A DNA stretch of 64,000 nt from Pseudomonadota bacterium. Its GTDB lineage: Bacteria; Pseudomonadota; Gammaproteobacteria; Burkholderiales; Gallionellaceae. Below the pieces are notes generated by a model, which had not been told where the DNA came from, ran no database searches, and was given only the letters and a program-made list of their open reading frames with translations. Location of the stretch: NCBI GenBank assembly GCA_021782365.1, contig JAJXVB010000001.1:186001-250000 (forward strand), in the 5' to 3' direction. The translations under genes and the position numbers were made by a program. Of this stretch, positions 40,118 to 64,000 are shown piece after piece (the stretch's first letter is position 1; the number at the start of each line of letters is the position of its first letter).

Positions 40118-40145
40118 CAAACCCTCCAGCAGCCCTACATAAGGA

Positions 40146-40240
40146 GGCGAGCCTTACCCCCGGCACTTGCAGAAATAACTATGGCTGCTTCCTTCCGGAC
40201 CTGACCAGGTTTGCTACCCTGCAATGCGGGGAGACCCGCC
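40146..40240 (-). ncRNA. ffs: 4.5S signal recognition particle RNA
   Basis: On the minus strand the core CAGGTCCGGAAGGAAGCAGC, diagnostic for bacterial SRP RNA with its GGAA tetraloop and symmetric internal loop, is near-identical to E. coli. The ends pair: GGCGGGTC at 40240-40233 with GGCTCGCC at 40153-40146, giving about 95 nucleotides, a small Alu-less type. It guides Ffh to signal sequences. It sits between fumarase and pagL-dnaX; its promoter must overlap the 3' end of fum, where I see no strong consensus. Confidence 0.95.
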
Positions 40241-56268: not shown

Positions 56269-57504
56269 ATGACGACGCAAAACATCTCCGAATTTTTTAT
56301 CGGGCGCCAGTCCATACTCGATAGAGAACAGAACTTAGCCGGATTCGAGCTGCTGTTCCGCTCAAGCCAGAAGAATTCCGCCAGAATCCATGACGACGTT
56401 GCCGCCACCTGTACCGTGATCAACCATGCGTTCAATGAGCTCGGTTTCCAGACGGTATTGGGAAAGCACCGGGGGTTCATCAATTTCAGCGCAGAGATGC
56501 TGATGGACGACATGGTCGAATTGCTGCCCAAGGATCAGGTGATCATCGAGCTTCTGGAAACCATAGAGATCAACGATCTCGTGGTTGAACGCTGCAAATA
56601 CCTCAAATCCAGGGGCTATAAGCTGGCCTTGGACGATGTCGCAATATACTCGAAAGACCTCGATCCACTGCGAGAGTGCATAGACATCGTCAAGATAGAC
56701 CTGAAAGCCACCGACATGGGCAACCTCGCGAACACACTTCTTCAATTGAAGAAATGGCCCGCAAAGCTGCTAGCCGAAAAAGTCGACAATCCGGAGGAAG
56801 CGAAACTGTGCCTGGATGCAGGTTTCCACCTTTTCCAGGGCTATTACTTCGCGAAACCTCTGGTCATCACAGGCAAGCGCATGTCTCATTCAGAGATCGC
56901 GCTCCTGCAACTGCTGGGACTCGTGATGAGCGATGCGGGCACCGATGAAATCGAGAAAATATTCAAGCAGAACCCGGGACTGAGCTTCAATCTCTTGCGC
57001 CTGACCAATTCCGCCGCCGCCGGATCGCGTGTCAAGATCACATCTCTCTCGGATGCGATCATGATATTGGGCCGGCGACAGTTGCAGCGCTGGCTTCAGC
57101 TTCTGATGTACACGAACGACAGGAGCAGCTTTCCCGACCCCCTTCTTCAGCTCGCCGCAACGCGTGGAAAGTCGATGGAACTGCTGGTCAAGAAGATCCC
57201 CGGATGCACGAAGACGATGGAAGACCAGGCATTCATGATCGGGATCATGTCGCTGATGGACACCCTGCTCGGCATACCGCTGGCCGAAATCATCTTGCCT
57301 CTCAATCCGCCTCTGGAGATACGCGATGCGCTGCTTTCAAGAAGAGGGCCGCTGGGAGAGATGCTGGCGATGATCGAACTGCTGGAAAGCTACAACATGG
57401 ACGCGGCGAACGAACTGCTCCAGGATCTATCTCCGCTCGACATCGACCAGGTCAATCATGCACAGCTCGAAGCGCTCGCCTGGACGAGCAGCTTCGAAAA
57501 CTGA
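56269..57504 (+). CDS. EAL-HDOD (YuxH-like) signalling protein
   Basis: 411 residues. An N-terminal EAL-like domain (about 1-200) followed by an HDOD domain (about 200-400). The EAL motif reads ELL (GFELLFR); the loop-6 DDFGTG is replaced by LDDVAIYSKD; the KID strand and the AEKV glutamate remain. Catalysis on cyclic di-GMP is therefore doubtful and it may bind rather than cleave. It converges with alaS with no bases between stops. A second HDOD gene lies at 63.4 kb. Confidence 0.88.
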   Translation: MTTQNISEFFIGRQSILDREQNLAGFELLFRSSQKNSARIHDDVAATCTVINHAFNELGFQTVLGKHRGFINFSAEMLMDDMVELLPKDQVIIELLETIEINDLVVERCKYLKSRGYKLALDDVAIYSKDLDPLRECIDIVKIDLKATDMGNLANTLLQLKKWPAKLLAEKVDNPEEAKLCLDAGFHLFQGYYFAKPLVITGKRMSHSEIALLQLLGLVMSDAGTDEIEKIFKQNPGLSFNLLRLTNSAAAGSRVKITSLSDAIMILGRRQLQRWLQLLMYTNDRSSFPDPLLQLAATRGKSMELLVKKIPGCTKTMEDQAFMIGIMSLMDTLLGIPLAEIILPLNPPLEIRDALLSRRGPLGEMLAMIELLESYNMDAANELLQDLSPLDIDQVNHAQLEALAWTSSFEN

Positions 57505-60114
<2,610 letters not shown>

Positions 60115-60218: not shown

Positions 60219-60258
60219 TTGACACATAAAAATATTAGAGTATAATGAGATTCTAATA
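60219..60258 (+). promoter_or_regulatory. fully consensus sigma-70 promoter inside a palindrome
   Basis: TTGACA (60219-60224), 16 bases, TATAAT (60241-60246): 12 of 12 consensus positions. TATTAGA (60233-60239) and TCTAATA (60252-60258) form an inverted repeat that brackets the -10 element, as an operator would. Transcription is to the right, where no protein gene follows on this strand. Confidence 0.8.
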
Positions 60259-60305
60259 CTCAGACACCCCCTTTAAGCCTGCAATCCCCCCGCGGGCTTT
60301 TTTTT
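60253..60305 (+). ncRNA. candidate small RNA, about 53 nt
   Basis: Predicted from a perfect promoter (start point near 60253) and an intrinsic terminator ending at 60305. The first 22 nucleotides are unstructured and include ACACCCCC; the terminator loop is AATCCCCCC. Two C-rich single-stranded patches could pair with G-rich ribosome sites. There is no start codon with a frame of useful length. It lies between alaS and the FAD reductase gene, both on the other strand. I do not recognise it as a known RNA family. Confidence 0.6.
60275..60305 (+). terminator. intrinsic terminator
   Basis: AAGCCTGC (60275-60282) pairs with GCGGGCTT (60292-60299), 8 bp with one G-U, loop of 9, followed by a run of T to 60305. 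The T run exists only for rightward transcripts, so it does not serve the leftward flavoprotein gene that ends at 60315. Confidence 0.85.
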
Positions 60306-60314
60306 GTCCTGAAT

Positions 60315-61433
60315 TCAGAGGTGTGCTGGCAGCAAGGCCTTCTGGTGGGAGTGAAGAAACCATCGATCCATCACCACATGGCGCGCGAACCAGGGATTGC
60401 CAAGCAGCATACGTGCAATGGCCTGGCGCATGAAATCCGGCCCGAGATCCGCCTGCCTTCCCCTGCCAAATCGCTGGGTGAGCCGCCTTTCGTAAGGCAT
60501 GAGCCTTTCCCTGCGGTAATCCCCTTCCGCTGAAACGATCGCATCGGCCGCCATCAGGGCTGATTCGACAGCGGGCCTTATCCCCTCCCCGCTCTGCGGG
60601 AAAGCCAGGCCTGCGGCATCTCCGATGAGCATCAGGCCATCGTCTATACGCTTGCGTGCTGCATGCCCGTAAAGCAGGTAGGCATGACCGTGAAACCTTT
60701 GCGTCAGGCGGCCCGGTATCCTCCCCTGCTGCTCAAGAAAATCGCAGAAATTTTCAAGGTGCTCGGAAAGCCCGTGAGCCTCTTCACGTCCAAGCCCGAC
60801 ATTCAGGTAGTTTCCCTTGCGAAAGCACCAGCCATAGCCCTTCAGGTCCTGGCAGAAGTAAAGCTCGGGCGTGTCTGCGGAAACCCCGCAGGTATCGCTC
60901 TGCAGCGGGCTCATCTCGAACTCGACCTCCTTGGCCGCGATAGCTCGCTCATCCGCGCCCAGCTTCGCACCCATCAATCGGGCGACAGGGCAGAAATGCC
61001 CTCCTGCGCCGACTACCAGCCTTGCCGAAATGGAATCGTTGACGATCCATGATCCGCCGCTTCGTTTAAGAGATTTCAGTGGCTGTCCGGTCAATAGCCT
61101 AGCCTTCGAGCGCTTCAGAAGATAGCCGTCCAGTTCGCGACGGCGTATGCCATAGCTCACCGCTGTACGGTATCCCACCTTCACGCTTTTCCCATCGATC
61201 ATCCCGGTCCTGAATCCCGTGATCGGCTGCAGAACATGCTGACTTGCATAGTCATCGAGGTCAAGATTTAGGGAGGCGATCACGGCAGGCGTGATCCATC
61301 CCGCGCAGACCTTGTCGCGCGGAAAATCAGACTTGTCCATCACCACAACGTCCAGGCCATGCCTCAGGAGCTGCCACGCGCAGCTCGAGCCGGCCGGCCC
61401 CCCTCCCACGATCAGCACATCACAGCTGTCCAT
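60315..61433 (-). CDS. geranylgeranyl-reductase-like FAD oxidoreductase
   Basis: 372 residues. N-terminal DVLIVGGGPAGSSCAWQLL FAD motif, family segment DKVCAGWITP, and the second FAD motif GLMLIGDAAGLAFPQSGEGIRPA. This family reduces isolated C=C bonds in prenyl chains or lipids. Its 5' end overlaps the cyclopropane synthase 3' end by 14 bases, so they are one operon; a lipid substrate is therefore likely. Chlorophyll-type reductase use is not supported, since no pigment genes are seen. Confidence 0.85.
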   Translation of the reverse strand: MDSCDVLIVGGGPAGSSCAWQLLRHGLDVVVMDKSDFPRDKVCAGWITPAVIASLNLDLDDYASQHVLQPITGFRTGMIDGKSVKVGYRTAVSYGIRRRELDGYLLKRSKARLLTGQPLKSLKRSGGSWIVNDSISARLVVGAGGHFCPVARLMGAKLGADERAIAAKEVEFEMSPLQSDTCGVSADTPELYFCQDLKGYGWCFRKGNYLNVGLGREEAHGLSEHLENFCDFLEQQGRIPGRLTQRFHGHAYLLYGHAARKRIDDGLMLIGDAAGLAFPQSGEGIRPAVESALMAADAIVSAEGDYRRERLMPYERRLTQRFGRGRQADLGPDFMRQAIARMLLGNPWFARHVVMDRWFLHSHQKALLPAHL

Positions 61434-62661
61434 CGCCTTCATACAGGTACTGTCTGGTCAGCGGCGCATAATGACCCGCGCGCGCGAAGGAAACCTGGAA
61501 GAGCTGCATGCCGCCTGACTTGAAAGCAGTCAAGGACCCGGCAAGATAGAGGCGCCACATCCGCACGAATTCCTCGTCGAACATCGCCCTCACGGCATCG
61601 GCGTTGCGCTCGAACCGGCAGAGCCAATGGTCCAGCGTCATCGCGTAGTGCATGCGCAGGTTTTCCACGTCCAGCACCGAAAAATCGAAGGGCTCGAAAA
61701 TCTGCATCATCTGCGAAATGCTGGGAGGGCAGGCGCCCGGAAATATGTAGCGCGCAGTCCACGCATCCATGGGCCTCGGATAATTGAGACCTATCGTGTG
61801 TATCAGCCCTCTGCCATCGGCTTTCAGGGTGCGGTTTATCATTCCGCCCAGTTCGCGGTAATGCTCAACTCCAACATGCTCCAGCATGCCGACCGAAACG
61901 AAGGCATCGAATCCACCCTCGGCGTTGCGGTAATCGTCCTCGATGAATTCGACCCTGTCTTCCAGCCCTTCCTCTTTCGCGCGCCGCCTGGCAAAGGCGA
62001 TCTGTTCCCTAGAGATGTTATATGCCTTCACATTAACACCGTAATGTCCGGCCATGTGCATCGCCAAAGCCCCCCACCCGCATCCCGCCTCCAGCACCTT
62101 CTCGCCAGGTTTCAGCCGCAGCTTGCGGCAAACGTGATCGAGCTTCGCGATCTGGGCCTCTTCGAGACTCATGTCCTGGTTCCTGAAATACGCGCAGGTA
62201 TAAACCATGCGTTCGTCCAGCCATAGCCTGTAGAAATCATTTCCGATATCGTAGTGGTGGTGGATGTTGGACTTGGAACCCTCGAGCGTGTTGGACTTGG
62301 CGAAGGACGGGGACCGCTTCCTGCCCAGCCCCTTCATGAGCGGCCAGGCCCGGTAGACCGCCTCGACGAAATCGAGCAGACTACCCTGAACTTCTATGCG
62401 GCGGCTGGAATAAAGCTCTCCGAAATGCAGCTCTGGATCCGCGATCAGGCTGTAGAGCGCGCCTCTGTCGCGTATCAGGATGCTTGCAACCGCAGCATCC
62501 GAACTCCTGACCTCCTGCCCGTTCCAGAGCACGATTTCTATGGGCGGATCTCCGATGGCCCGGAGCATTCTGGATAAAAGCATGGATTCGGCCGCAAAGA
62601 CCTTGCGATAGGGAAAAACCGCCAGACGGTTGATCACGCTTTCCATGTCTGCTTGCTTCAT
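61420..62661 (-). CDS. cfa: cyclopropane-fatty-acyl-phospholipid synthase family methyltransferase
   Basis: 413 residues. N-terminal lipid-binding domain, then a SAM methyltransferase domain: VLEAGCGWGALAMHMAGHYGV (SAM loop), HHYDIGNDFYRLWLDERMVYTCAYF and MLEHVGVEHYRE, which hold residues that bind the bicarbonate in Cfa. It adds a methylene (or methyl) to unsaturated acyl chains of membrane phospholipids. Conditions for this family are usually stationary phase or acid stress; no RpoS gene is in this window. Inverted repeats lie just upstream. Confidence 0.93.
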   Translation of the reverse strand: MKQADMESVINRLAVFPYRKVFAAESMLLSRMLRAIGDPPIEIVLWNGQEVRSSDAAVASILIRDRGALYSLIADPELHFGELYSSRRIEVQGSLLDFVEAVYRAWPLMKGLGRKRSPSFAKSNTLEGSKSNIHHHYDIGNDFYRLWLDERMVYTCAYFRNQDMSLEEAQIAKLDHVCRKLRLKPGEKVLEAGCGWGALAMHMAGHYGVNVKAYNISREQIAFARRRAKEEGLEDRVEFIEDDYRNAEGGFDAFVSVGMLEHVGVEHYRELGGMINRTLKADGRGLIHTIGLNYPRPMDAWTARYIFPGACPPSISQMMQIFEPFDFSVLDVENLRMHYAMTLDHWLCRFERNADAVRAMFDEEFVRMWRLYLAGSLTAFKSGGMQLFQVSFARAGHYAPLTRQYLYEGDGQL

Positions 62662-63372: not shown

Positions 63373-64000
63373 ATGGAAGACCTGCGAGCAAAGATCGGTA
63401 AGGCCGACGTACTCCCCACCATTTCCACCATCGCAAGACAGTTGCTGTCCCTGCAGCTGGACACCGAGGAAGGCGAGAATGCGCTTCTCGATCTGGTCAA
63501 ATCCGACCCCTTCATCTCGGCCAGGCTGATCGGAATGGCCAATTCCCCGATCTTCGTGATCGGAAGAAAGATCAGCACGGTGAGCGATGCCGCGCTGGTT
63601 CTCGGGCTTTCCATCGTGAAATCGGTTGCGACGGTCATCGCACTGACCGAACCGATAAAGATACGCGAAAGCAAGATATTCACGCTGAGCGACCTCTGGC
63701 TGCACAGCTTCTCGGTAGCGGCAGGCATGCGCCTACTGGCATCCAAACTTCCTGGCAGACTCAAGCCTGACGAGAACATGCTGTTTCTATCGGGGCTCCT
63801 TCACGACATGGGCTATCTGGTGATGGCCCACCTTGAGCCCGCGAAATTCGACGCCTTCATAAGCCATATCGAATCCCATCCTGAGGAGTCCACCATCGAT
63901 CTCGAAATATCCACATTCGGCATCACCCACGCCGAAATCGGCGGCATGATGGCCAGAAAATGGAATCTTCCCGAAGAAGTGATCCAGGTGATCGAAGGAC
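63373..64000 (+). CDS. HDOD domain protein, truncated by window end
   Basis: 209 codons visible, starting MEDLRAKIGKADVLPTI. The HDOD fold is recognised by LLDLVKSDPFISARLIGMANSPIF, SDAALVLGLSIVKSVATVIAL and FLSGLLHDMGYLVMAH. The HD metal pair is partly kept (LLHDMGY) but HDOD domains are normally non-catalytic and act in signalling. Whatever follows the domain is beyond the window. Promoter just upstream. Confidence 0.87.
   Translation, partial: MEDLRAKIGKADVLPTISTIARQLLSLQLDTEEGENALLDLVKSDPFISARLIGMANSPIFVIGRKISTVSDAALVLGLSIVKSVATVIALTEPIKIRESKIFTLSDLWLHSFSVAAGMRLLASKLPGRLKPDENMLFLSGLLHDMGYLVMAHLEPAKFDAFISHIESHPEESTIDLEISTFGITHAEIGGMMARKWNLPEEVIQVIEG

Follow-up and report, generated by a model that had tools for sequence, protein, structure and literature searches.

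The short unit lying between alaS and a flavoprotein gene raises the question of what a promoter that matches the consensus perfectly expresses there, and of whether such a promoter is always active. The unit was examined in the window, i.e., the whole stretch of DNA analyzed (64,000 nucleotides); G000 denotes the genome of the window, and the other G numbers denote other genomes of the same bacterial family (158 in total). A preliminary description had placed TTGACA-N16-TATAAT at 60219-60246 and an intrinsic terminator ending at 60305, and both were located at exactly these positions. The features of the region are as follows.

57505-60114, minus strand: alaS, the divergent neighbor; the start was set at the ATG of MNSSEIRQ
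60219-60224, plus strand: -35 hexamer TTGACA (sequence reading, promoter scan)
60232-60251, no strand: operator-like site A, ATATTAGAGTATAATGAGAT, over the spacer and the -10 hexamer (score of 20.2 with the arsR-linked matrix, top in the window)
60240-60259, no strand: operator-like site B, GTATAATGAGATTCTAATAC, overlapping site A and covering the -10 hexamer and the predicted start (matrix score, 14.0)
60241-60246, plus strand: -10 hexamer TATAAT after a 16-nt spacer (sequence reading, promoter scan)
60253-60305, plus strand: predicted 53-nt small RNA (sRNA), with a putative start 7 nt past the -10 box
60265-60274, plus strand: unpaired C-rich leader, CACCCCCTTT, the presumed seed for Shine-Dalgarno (SD) pairing (predicted fold)
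60275-60299, plus strand: terminator hairpin (stem, 60275-60282/60292-60299) with the C-rich 9-base loop AATCCCCCC at 60283-60291
60298-60305, plus strand: terminal T-run, the first two bases of which are paired in the stem
60315-61442, minus strand: FAD-dependent oxidoreductase (flavoprotein) gene, the convergent neighbor, with its stop at 60315

Sites A and B together form the inverted repeat ATTAG-N14-CTAAT. Among the relatives of the flavoprotein, the best-named belong to Nitrosomonadales/Gallionella metagenome-assembled genomes, which suggests a betaproteobacterial host resembling iron oxidizers. The alaS region is flanked by the genes of an EAL-HDOD protein (56269-57504) and an HDOD protein (63373-64000), both identified with Pfam, and a small bacterial SRP RNA gene is located at 40143-40240 of the window on the minus strand (Rfam RF00169, 78.2 bits).

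When spacings of 15 to 19 were allowed, this promoter was the only 12/12 match within the 64 kb window, and the runner-up reached 10/12. In 20 simulated versions of the window (first-order Markov model), no 12/12 site arose and five sites reached at least 11/12. The rarity ascribed to the perfect promoter was thus borne out. The strong transcription that it was said to imply needs qualification, since the -10 hexamer overlaps a probable ArsR-type operator that the preliminary description had missed; to judge from the sequence, a perfect promoter need not equal constitutive transcription. The terminator hairpin was the sole predicted fold of the 53-nt RNA (-11.7 kcal/mol, z -3.1); the CACCCCC leader and CUAAUACUCAGACACCCCCUUU were unpaired, and the terminator loop includes CCCCCC. 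A simple terminator scan of the window omitted this terminator, probably because its 9-base loop exceeds the limit of 8 in the scan. No ATG/GTG/TTG frame of at least 5 codons was present in the predicted RNA, in agreement with the claim that no protein frame lies between the promoter and the terminator. At the Rfam gathering score, the unit matched no family, the SRP RNA elsewhere in the window being the sole exception. Two weaker Rfam lines were judged to be chance, namely CyaR/RyeE, the best sub-threshold line at the unit (L002; 23.6 of 47 bits, E 2.1), and Xoo8, which lay beside the unit and not on it.

When the DNA of the 158 family genomes was searched, four hits spanning most of the query were obtained with E values from 1.5e-45 to 6e-19, namely in G048 (94%) and in G044, G045, and G046 (81-82%). 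In G059, part of the query was matched (E 2.5e-7). The remaining places had E values above 0.003 and were treated as chance, part of them having been read. The unit adjoins alaS in all of G048, G044, G045, and G046 (tblastn, 98% and 78% identity), so that promoter, leader, and terminator are kept beside alaS in four relatives, or five genomes with the window. Conservation between alaS and the flavoprotein gene, which had been proposed as a check, held for the unit and alaS and, in G048, not for the other neighbor: no flavoprotein gene was found in the 3 kb locus of that genome (L116), where HDOD and glycine-zipper genes come directly and the unit still accompanies alaS. The promoter hexamers were identical in all five alaS-linked copies, and TCTAATACTCARACACCCCCTT was identical save for one A/G change. 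The C-rich leader was the same in four of the five, the window having one change, and two pairs of the terminator stem were changed with compensation.

Units at other positions were sought with two covariance models, R1 (built from the five copies) and R2 (from 15 members). R1 found nine further family genomes at E ≤0.0032, plus G122 at E 0.22. R2 gave 15 strong matches (E ≤1.4e-10), all of them its own training sequences, and weaker ones besides, three of which were accepted on reading: G025 (E 0.0016; the unit is cut by the contig end), G145 (E 0.012), and G155 (E 0.14). The remaining weak matches of R2 (E 0.16-0.75) and R1 (E 0.31-0.72) were inspected and not accepted. The unit is therefore carried by at least 18 of the 158 family genomes, 15 found by the models and the three accepted on reading; since at most 26 to 28 candidates per genome were scored, the reach of the models is limited and absence elsewhere carries little weight. 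The 17 complete loci fall into eleven neighborhoods, that of alaS and ten others, as listed below.

Neighborhoods 1 to 6: alaS; LpxC and an SQR-like gene (weak match); PanC; radical-SAM; cation-efflux/RND; GST
Neighborhoods 7 to 11: DEAD-box/YchF; YchF/Pth; DUF190; a TPR protein; one without a family

The members have in common the promoter, the C-rich leader, and the T-run, G113 having a -10 element without a consensus -35. Fifteen members share the stem GGCYTGC/GCARGCC or AGCCTGC/GCRGGCT with a mostly C-rich loop. G145 and G155 have different hairpins, with CACCTCCC, CTCTCCCC, or CACCCCTCCTC segments, and the G145 relative has several predicted hairpins, two of them with C-rich loops. The blastn search of the unit region detected no similarity of G145 and G155 to other loci. 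In pattern searches, exact TTGACA-TATAAT-TCTAATA occurred only in G000 and G048 among 399 genomes sampled from the order (13 belonging to the same family), and a GTATNRT-plus-terminator pattern occurred in 42 of the 158 genomes, where 13 places were known members and the rest were unrelated by eye. In G059 (L118:1881-3086), the sRNA lies 3' of an SQR-like gene on the same strand; this gene scored 30.8 bits with the type III SQR model, the cut-off of which is 525.

Similar units with the same stem, GGCTTGC/GCAAGCC, at different positions might be remnants or copies of a small mobile element that moves a promoter and a terminator between places. Across different neighborhoods, blastn similarity was indeed confined to the unit plus at most about 16 bases, with the exception of the ychF region of G121 and G155, whose units ychF adjoins on opposite sides. 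However, there was one place per genome among the candidates scored by R1 and R2, the second R2 match of G014 being on the opposite strand of the same place, and we regard a mobile origin as extremely unlikely.

In an alignment of 15 sequences, the terminator stem was paired in 100% of cells and the covariation score was 0.226, each of which was matched by 0 of 500 shuffles. Two of the seven stem pairs were changed on both sides, a count that 122 of 500 shuffles also reached, and each of these changes may be one single event. The covariance analysis suggested in the preliminary description thus favored the stem by pairing and covariation score, and not by the number of two-sided changes. Five-base windows with at least four C residues numbered 71 in 11 RNAs (one per neighborhood) against a shuffle mean of 24.2, about threefold, and none of 5000 shuffles was as high; this count is partly selected, because the models themselves contain C-rich columns. 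The C-rich single-stranded patches reported earlier were accordingly recovered, the leader being both unpaired in the predicted fold and conserved. On predicted structure, exposed and conserved C-rich segments hold across the family; in G059, the leader is C-rich and the loop is not. Conservation beside alaS and recurrence at the ten other positions support, at the level of sequence, the existence of an unannotated sRNA that has a strong promoter and leaves C-rich patches exposed, and we are highly confident that the sRNA gene is real.

We infer, as did the preliminary description, that the patches could bind G-rich ribosome sites. A single target search with AAGGGGGTGT in five genomes found this sequence outside the sRNA gene zero to two times per genome (one each in G000, G045, and G048, two in G046, and none in G044); by eye, these sites were never at the same gene, so no conserved target emerged from this search, and only the G046 site L279 lay directly 5' of an ATG. 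Action by blocking of SD sequences is considered fairly probable. The lack of a conserved target in these five genomes, the very short RNA, and the patchy presence (at least 18 of 158 genomes, with models of limited reach) would also fit a unit that is transcribed and has no function at the RNA level, its strong promoter and own terminator insulating alaS or acting locally. This explanation is highly unlikely, because the C-rich leader is kept at eleven positions with different neighbors, in G145 and G155 even with different hairpins, and because it varies by one change, that of the window, among the five alaS-linked copies.

We then considered what might control the promoter. The sequence around the -10 box, ATATTAGAGTATAATGAGATTCTAATAC, is AT-rich and partly palindromic, and a repeat search led to genes of ArsR-type regulators, in G020 beside RND-adaptor and pyridine-nucleotide-disulfide-oxidoreductase (SQR-like) genes and in G042 beside RND-transporter genes. 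The arsR, RND adaptor, and SQR-like genes lie together in G020 (L137), as do arsR, adaptor, and RND-transporter genes in G042 (L138), with an operator between arsR and the adaptor gene. In G000 (L235), the operator is kept and the adaptor gene seems to have been lost from the arsR place. A 24-bp match in G020 was rejected as the ArsR operator, since the true operator is 20 bp with another half-site spacing, and a matrix test was used instead.

The ArsR gene was detected in 132 of the 158 family genomes at E ≤1e-15, including G000 (C24:10409-10702, 88% identical to the query), and in 17 of the 18 sRNA carriers; none was seen in G060, which is 65% complete. The best solved relative of the ArsR protein was BigR of Xylella (E 1.2e-17), with which both cysteines align, followed by HlyU, YgaV, and another ArsR protein, which we take to be SqrR. 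The two sensor cysteines were present in 50 of 50 ArsR loci (46 by pattern and 4 by eye). The protein scored 73.5 bits with the NCBIfam BigR equivalog and did not reach its cut-off of 155; it is therefore designated BigR-like, not BigR. A 20-bp site was located 3' of arsR in 29 of 49 loci, with at least 15 of 20 positions agreeing with ATATTAGNATATNCTAATAT, and 20 loci were without it; among the 29 sites, that of L249 looks spurious. With at most 2 mismatches, the operator occurred in 126 of the 158 genomes (reversed control, 1). It was present in 120 of the 132 genomes with ArsR compared with 6 of the 26 without, six of the latter 26 having been identified by elimination (Fisher p 3e-12, relatedness ignored). 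G000 has both the ArsR gene and canonical operators.

A symmetric operator matrix was derived from 21 distinct arsR-linked forms, with no sRNA sequence included, which makes the match at the sRNA promoter an independent one. Its best score in the whole 64 kb window was site A at 60232-60251 (20.2), the next site off the promoter scoring 11.0, and the promoter was also top-ranked in all 16 of the remaining sRNA loci (scores, 9.6-31.0). The alaS group scored 16.9-20.2, and G113, G145, and G155 scored 25-31. An AT-rich promoter favors such a matrix. In a control of 10000 runs, the -35 and -10 hexamers were fixed (in G113, the -10 only) and the rest was shuffled. The score of the window was reached by 46 of the 10000 shuffles, and the corresponding counts were 342 for G048, 163 for G044, 77 for G045, and 258 for G046; 164 for G059, 90 for G047, 5 for G060, 52 for G014, 30 for G049, and 4 for G050; and 0 for G113, 7 for G121, 12 for G122, 3 for G145, and 0 for G155. 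The operator-like site of G042 was not significant (990 of 10000). The least biased evidence comes from the window and its four alaS-linked orthologues, with 0.5-3.4% of shuffles reaching the score, since the distant members were found by models trained on the sRNA promoter and their operator likeness is partly selected and in part circular. The right half of the window site is weak, in part owing to its overlap with TATAAT.

A TTGA-A plus half-operator pattern was found in 16 of the 158 genomes (reversed control, 1). Nine of the 16 places were sRNA promoters, three were arsR-linked, one was 5' of an OsmC gene, and one was 5' of a rhodanese-like gene; the other two, in G031 and G084, were chance-like or without explanation. 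Upstream of arsR, the best matrix score had a median of 12.7 over 50 loci and was at least 15 in only 16 of them. The arsR upstream regions of L207, L211, and L218 carry AATATAAGCGTATAAT or a close form of it, much like the sRNA promoters. In G000, no operator-like element was seen upstream of arsR. The AATATAAGCGTATAAT-like sites suggest, by sequence, autoregulation of arsR in some genomes.

Taken together, we think it fairly likely that the sRNA promoter is under the control of the BigR-like ArsR. The main alternative is that a true C-rich trans-acting sRNA is transcribed from a promoter that is merely strong and constitutive, or under another factor, with AGMGTATWAT as an extended -10 preference and the likeness to the ArsR operator as a by-product of AT richness. 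The imperfect operator of the alaS group fits this explanation, as its scores of 16.9-20.2 (20.2 in the window) compare with 23.6-35.3 at 20 other operator places, which were picked for a close match; so do the 0.5-3.4% of shuffles that reach these scores, and the four of 18 carriers in which the operator was absent within 2 mismatches (the ArsR-bearing G044, G045, and G050, together with G060, in which no ArsR was seen). On the other hand, a matrix free of sRNA sequences ranked the promoter first in all 17 loci, and G113, G145, and G155 had high scores. Furthermore, AGNGTATNATNA occurred six times in G000 against five for its reversed control and is thus no common promoter motif there, and some arsR upstream regions bear AATATAAGCGTATAAT or a similar form. 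We therefore consider a constitutive or otherwise controlled promoter rather unlikely.

To see which other genes lie behind the operator, twenty operator places off the main arsR sites were chosen by hand among the matches listed. The nearest genes coded for rhodanese at seven places (including L310 of G000 and one in G046), a TolC-type outer-membrane protein at seven, and an RND adaptor at two; single places lay nearest to genes for an OsmC-like protein, a DEAD-box protein (256 bases off), a Rieske protein, and a membrane protein that has no family. Of the seven assignments each to rhodanese and to TolC-type proteins, Pfam backed three and two, respectively; it also backed both adaptor assignments and those of the Rieske and DEAD-box genes, and the other names are translations read by eye. 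By analogy with BigR and SqrR, as far as these are covered in the portions of the reports used here, this gene set fits a regulon for sulfide or sulfane sulfur (PMC9774250, PMC5823870). In G011 (L319), the operator is 17 bases 5' of the gene of the Rieske iron-sulfur protein (Pfam), an arrangement that would bring part of the respiratory chain under a sulfur sensor. In G017 (L312), it coincides with the start of a small gene that resembles membrane-protein genes and has no Pfam family.

With moderate confidence, we propose that the unit is a stand-alone gene of an SD-blocking sRNA, with a persulfide-sensing ArsR as its repressor and sulfide as its inducer. The BigR-like (or SqrR-like) ArsR would bind to site A and/or site B and block RNA polymerase at -10/+1, thereby silencing a very strong sigma-70 promoter. 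Sulfide or sulfane sulfur would modify the two sensor cysteines and release ArsR, and the freed promoter would then give rise to a short, terminator-ended RNA. The unpaired C-rich leader, and perhaps the terminator loop as well, would pair with G-rich SD regions and reduce the translation of a set of mRNAs. The sRNA may thus be an RNA arm of the sulfur-stress response.

In the parts of the literature drawn on here, dithiol ArsR repressors of the BigR/SqrR/YgaV type are released by sulfide or persulfide and control sulfur-detoxification genes (PMC9774250, PMC5823870, PMC7315123). The system described above resembles them in having a dithiol ArsR-type repressor and sulfur-detoxification genes, here known from sequence (PMC9774250, PMC5823870, PMC7315123). 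Searches of the open-licence literature turned up no sRNA member of such a regulon. According to the sections of one report, sX13 of Xanthomonas is highly expressed, has C-rich loops, and represses mRNAs with G-rich motifs near the translation start, as shown experimentally (PMC3771888). Its C-rich loops are like those found here, and the G145 relative is likewise multi-hairpin with two C-rich loops; however, sX13 has three stems and lies 3' of polA, whereas the RNA of the window has one hairpin and other neighbors, the two being compared by description (PMC3771888). Those sections do not mention a sulfide sensor as a regulator of sX13 (PMC3771888). The same source reports pairing with G-rich mRNA leaders, whether demonstrated or presumed, for the C-rich loops of HPnc5490 of Helicobacter and of C-rich Staphylococcus aureus RNAs (PMC3771888); these have a C-rich loop as here in other hosts, and are likened by description (PMC3771888).

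The preliminary description had also pointed to the C-rich stress RNAs of alphaproteobacteria, a kinship to which the Rfam search, with no family matching the unit, lent no support. The CcsR RNAs carry a CCUCC motif. Judging from the portions of the reports used, CcsR1-4 of Rhodobacter are similarly short and stress-linked and affect the glutathione pool, which places thiol metabolism in both pictures (PMC8307010, PMC7074977). They are, however, processed from the ccaF1 transcript and depend on alternative sigma factors, whereas the RNA of the window would be transcribed from a consensus sigma-70 promoter of its own, which bears a probable ArsR-type operator (PMC8307010, PMC7074977).

The C-rich kind of sRNA is thus already known; what would be new, as far as the searches of open-licence literature show, is that such an sRNA is tied to a repressor of the persulfide type and that its RNA body is turned over. 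We tentatively suggest, at somewhat less than even odds, that a family of anti-SD sRNAs serves, in this bacterial family, as the RNA-based regulatory arm of an ArsR regulon that senses persulfide. On this reading, the operator-promoter and the C-rich seed persist, whereas the RNA body and its position have been exchanged repeatedly (eleven neighborhoods and at least three architectures), and selection would act on a sulfide switch plus a C-rich seed and not on one RNA sequence. Sensing of sulfide and sulfane sulfur by BigR/SqrR repressors is known for protein genes, and an sRNA under such a repressor, if true, would add quick translational control to the sulfide response. An RNA body that is exchanged while switch and seed stay constant would be a clear natural example of sRNA turnover, and the system would open a way to study regulation in bacteria for which metagenome assemblies are the main source of knowledge.
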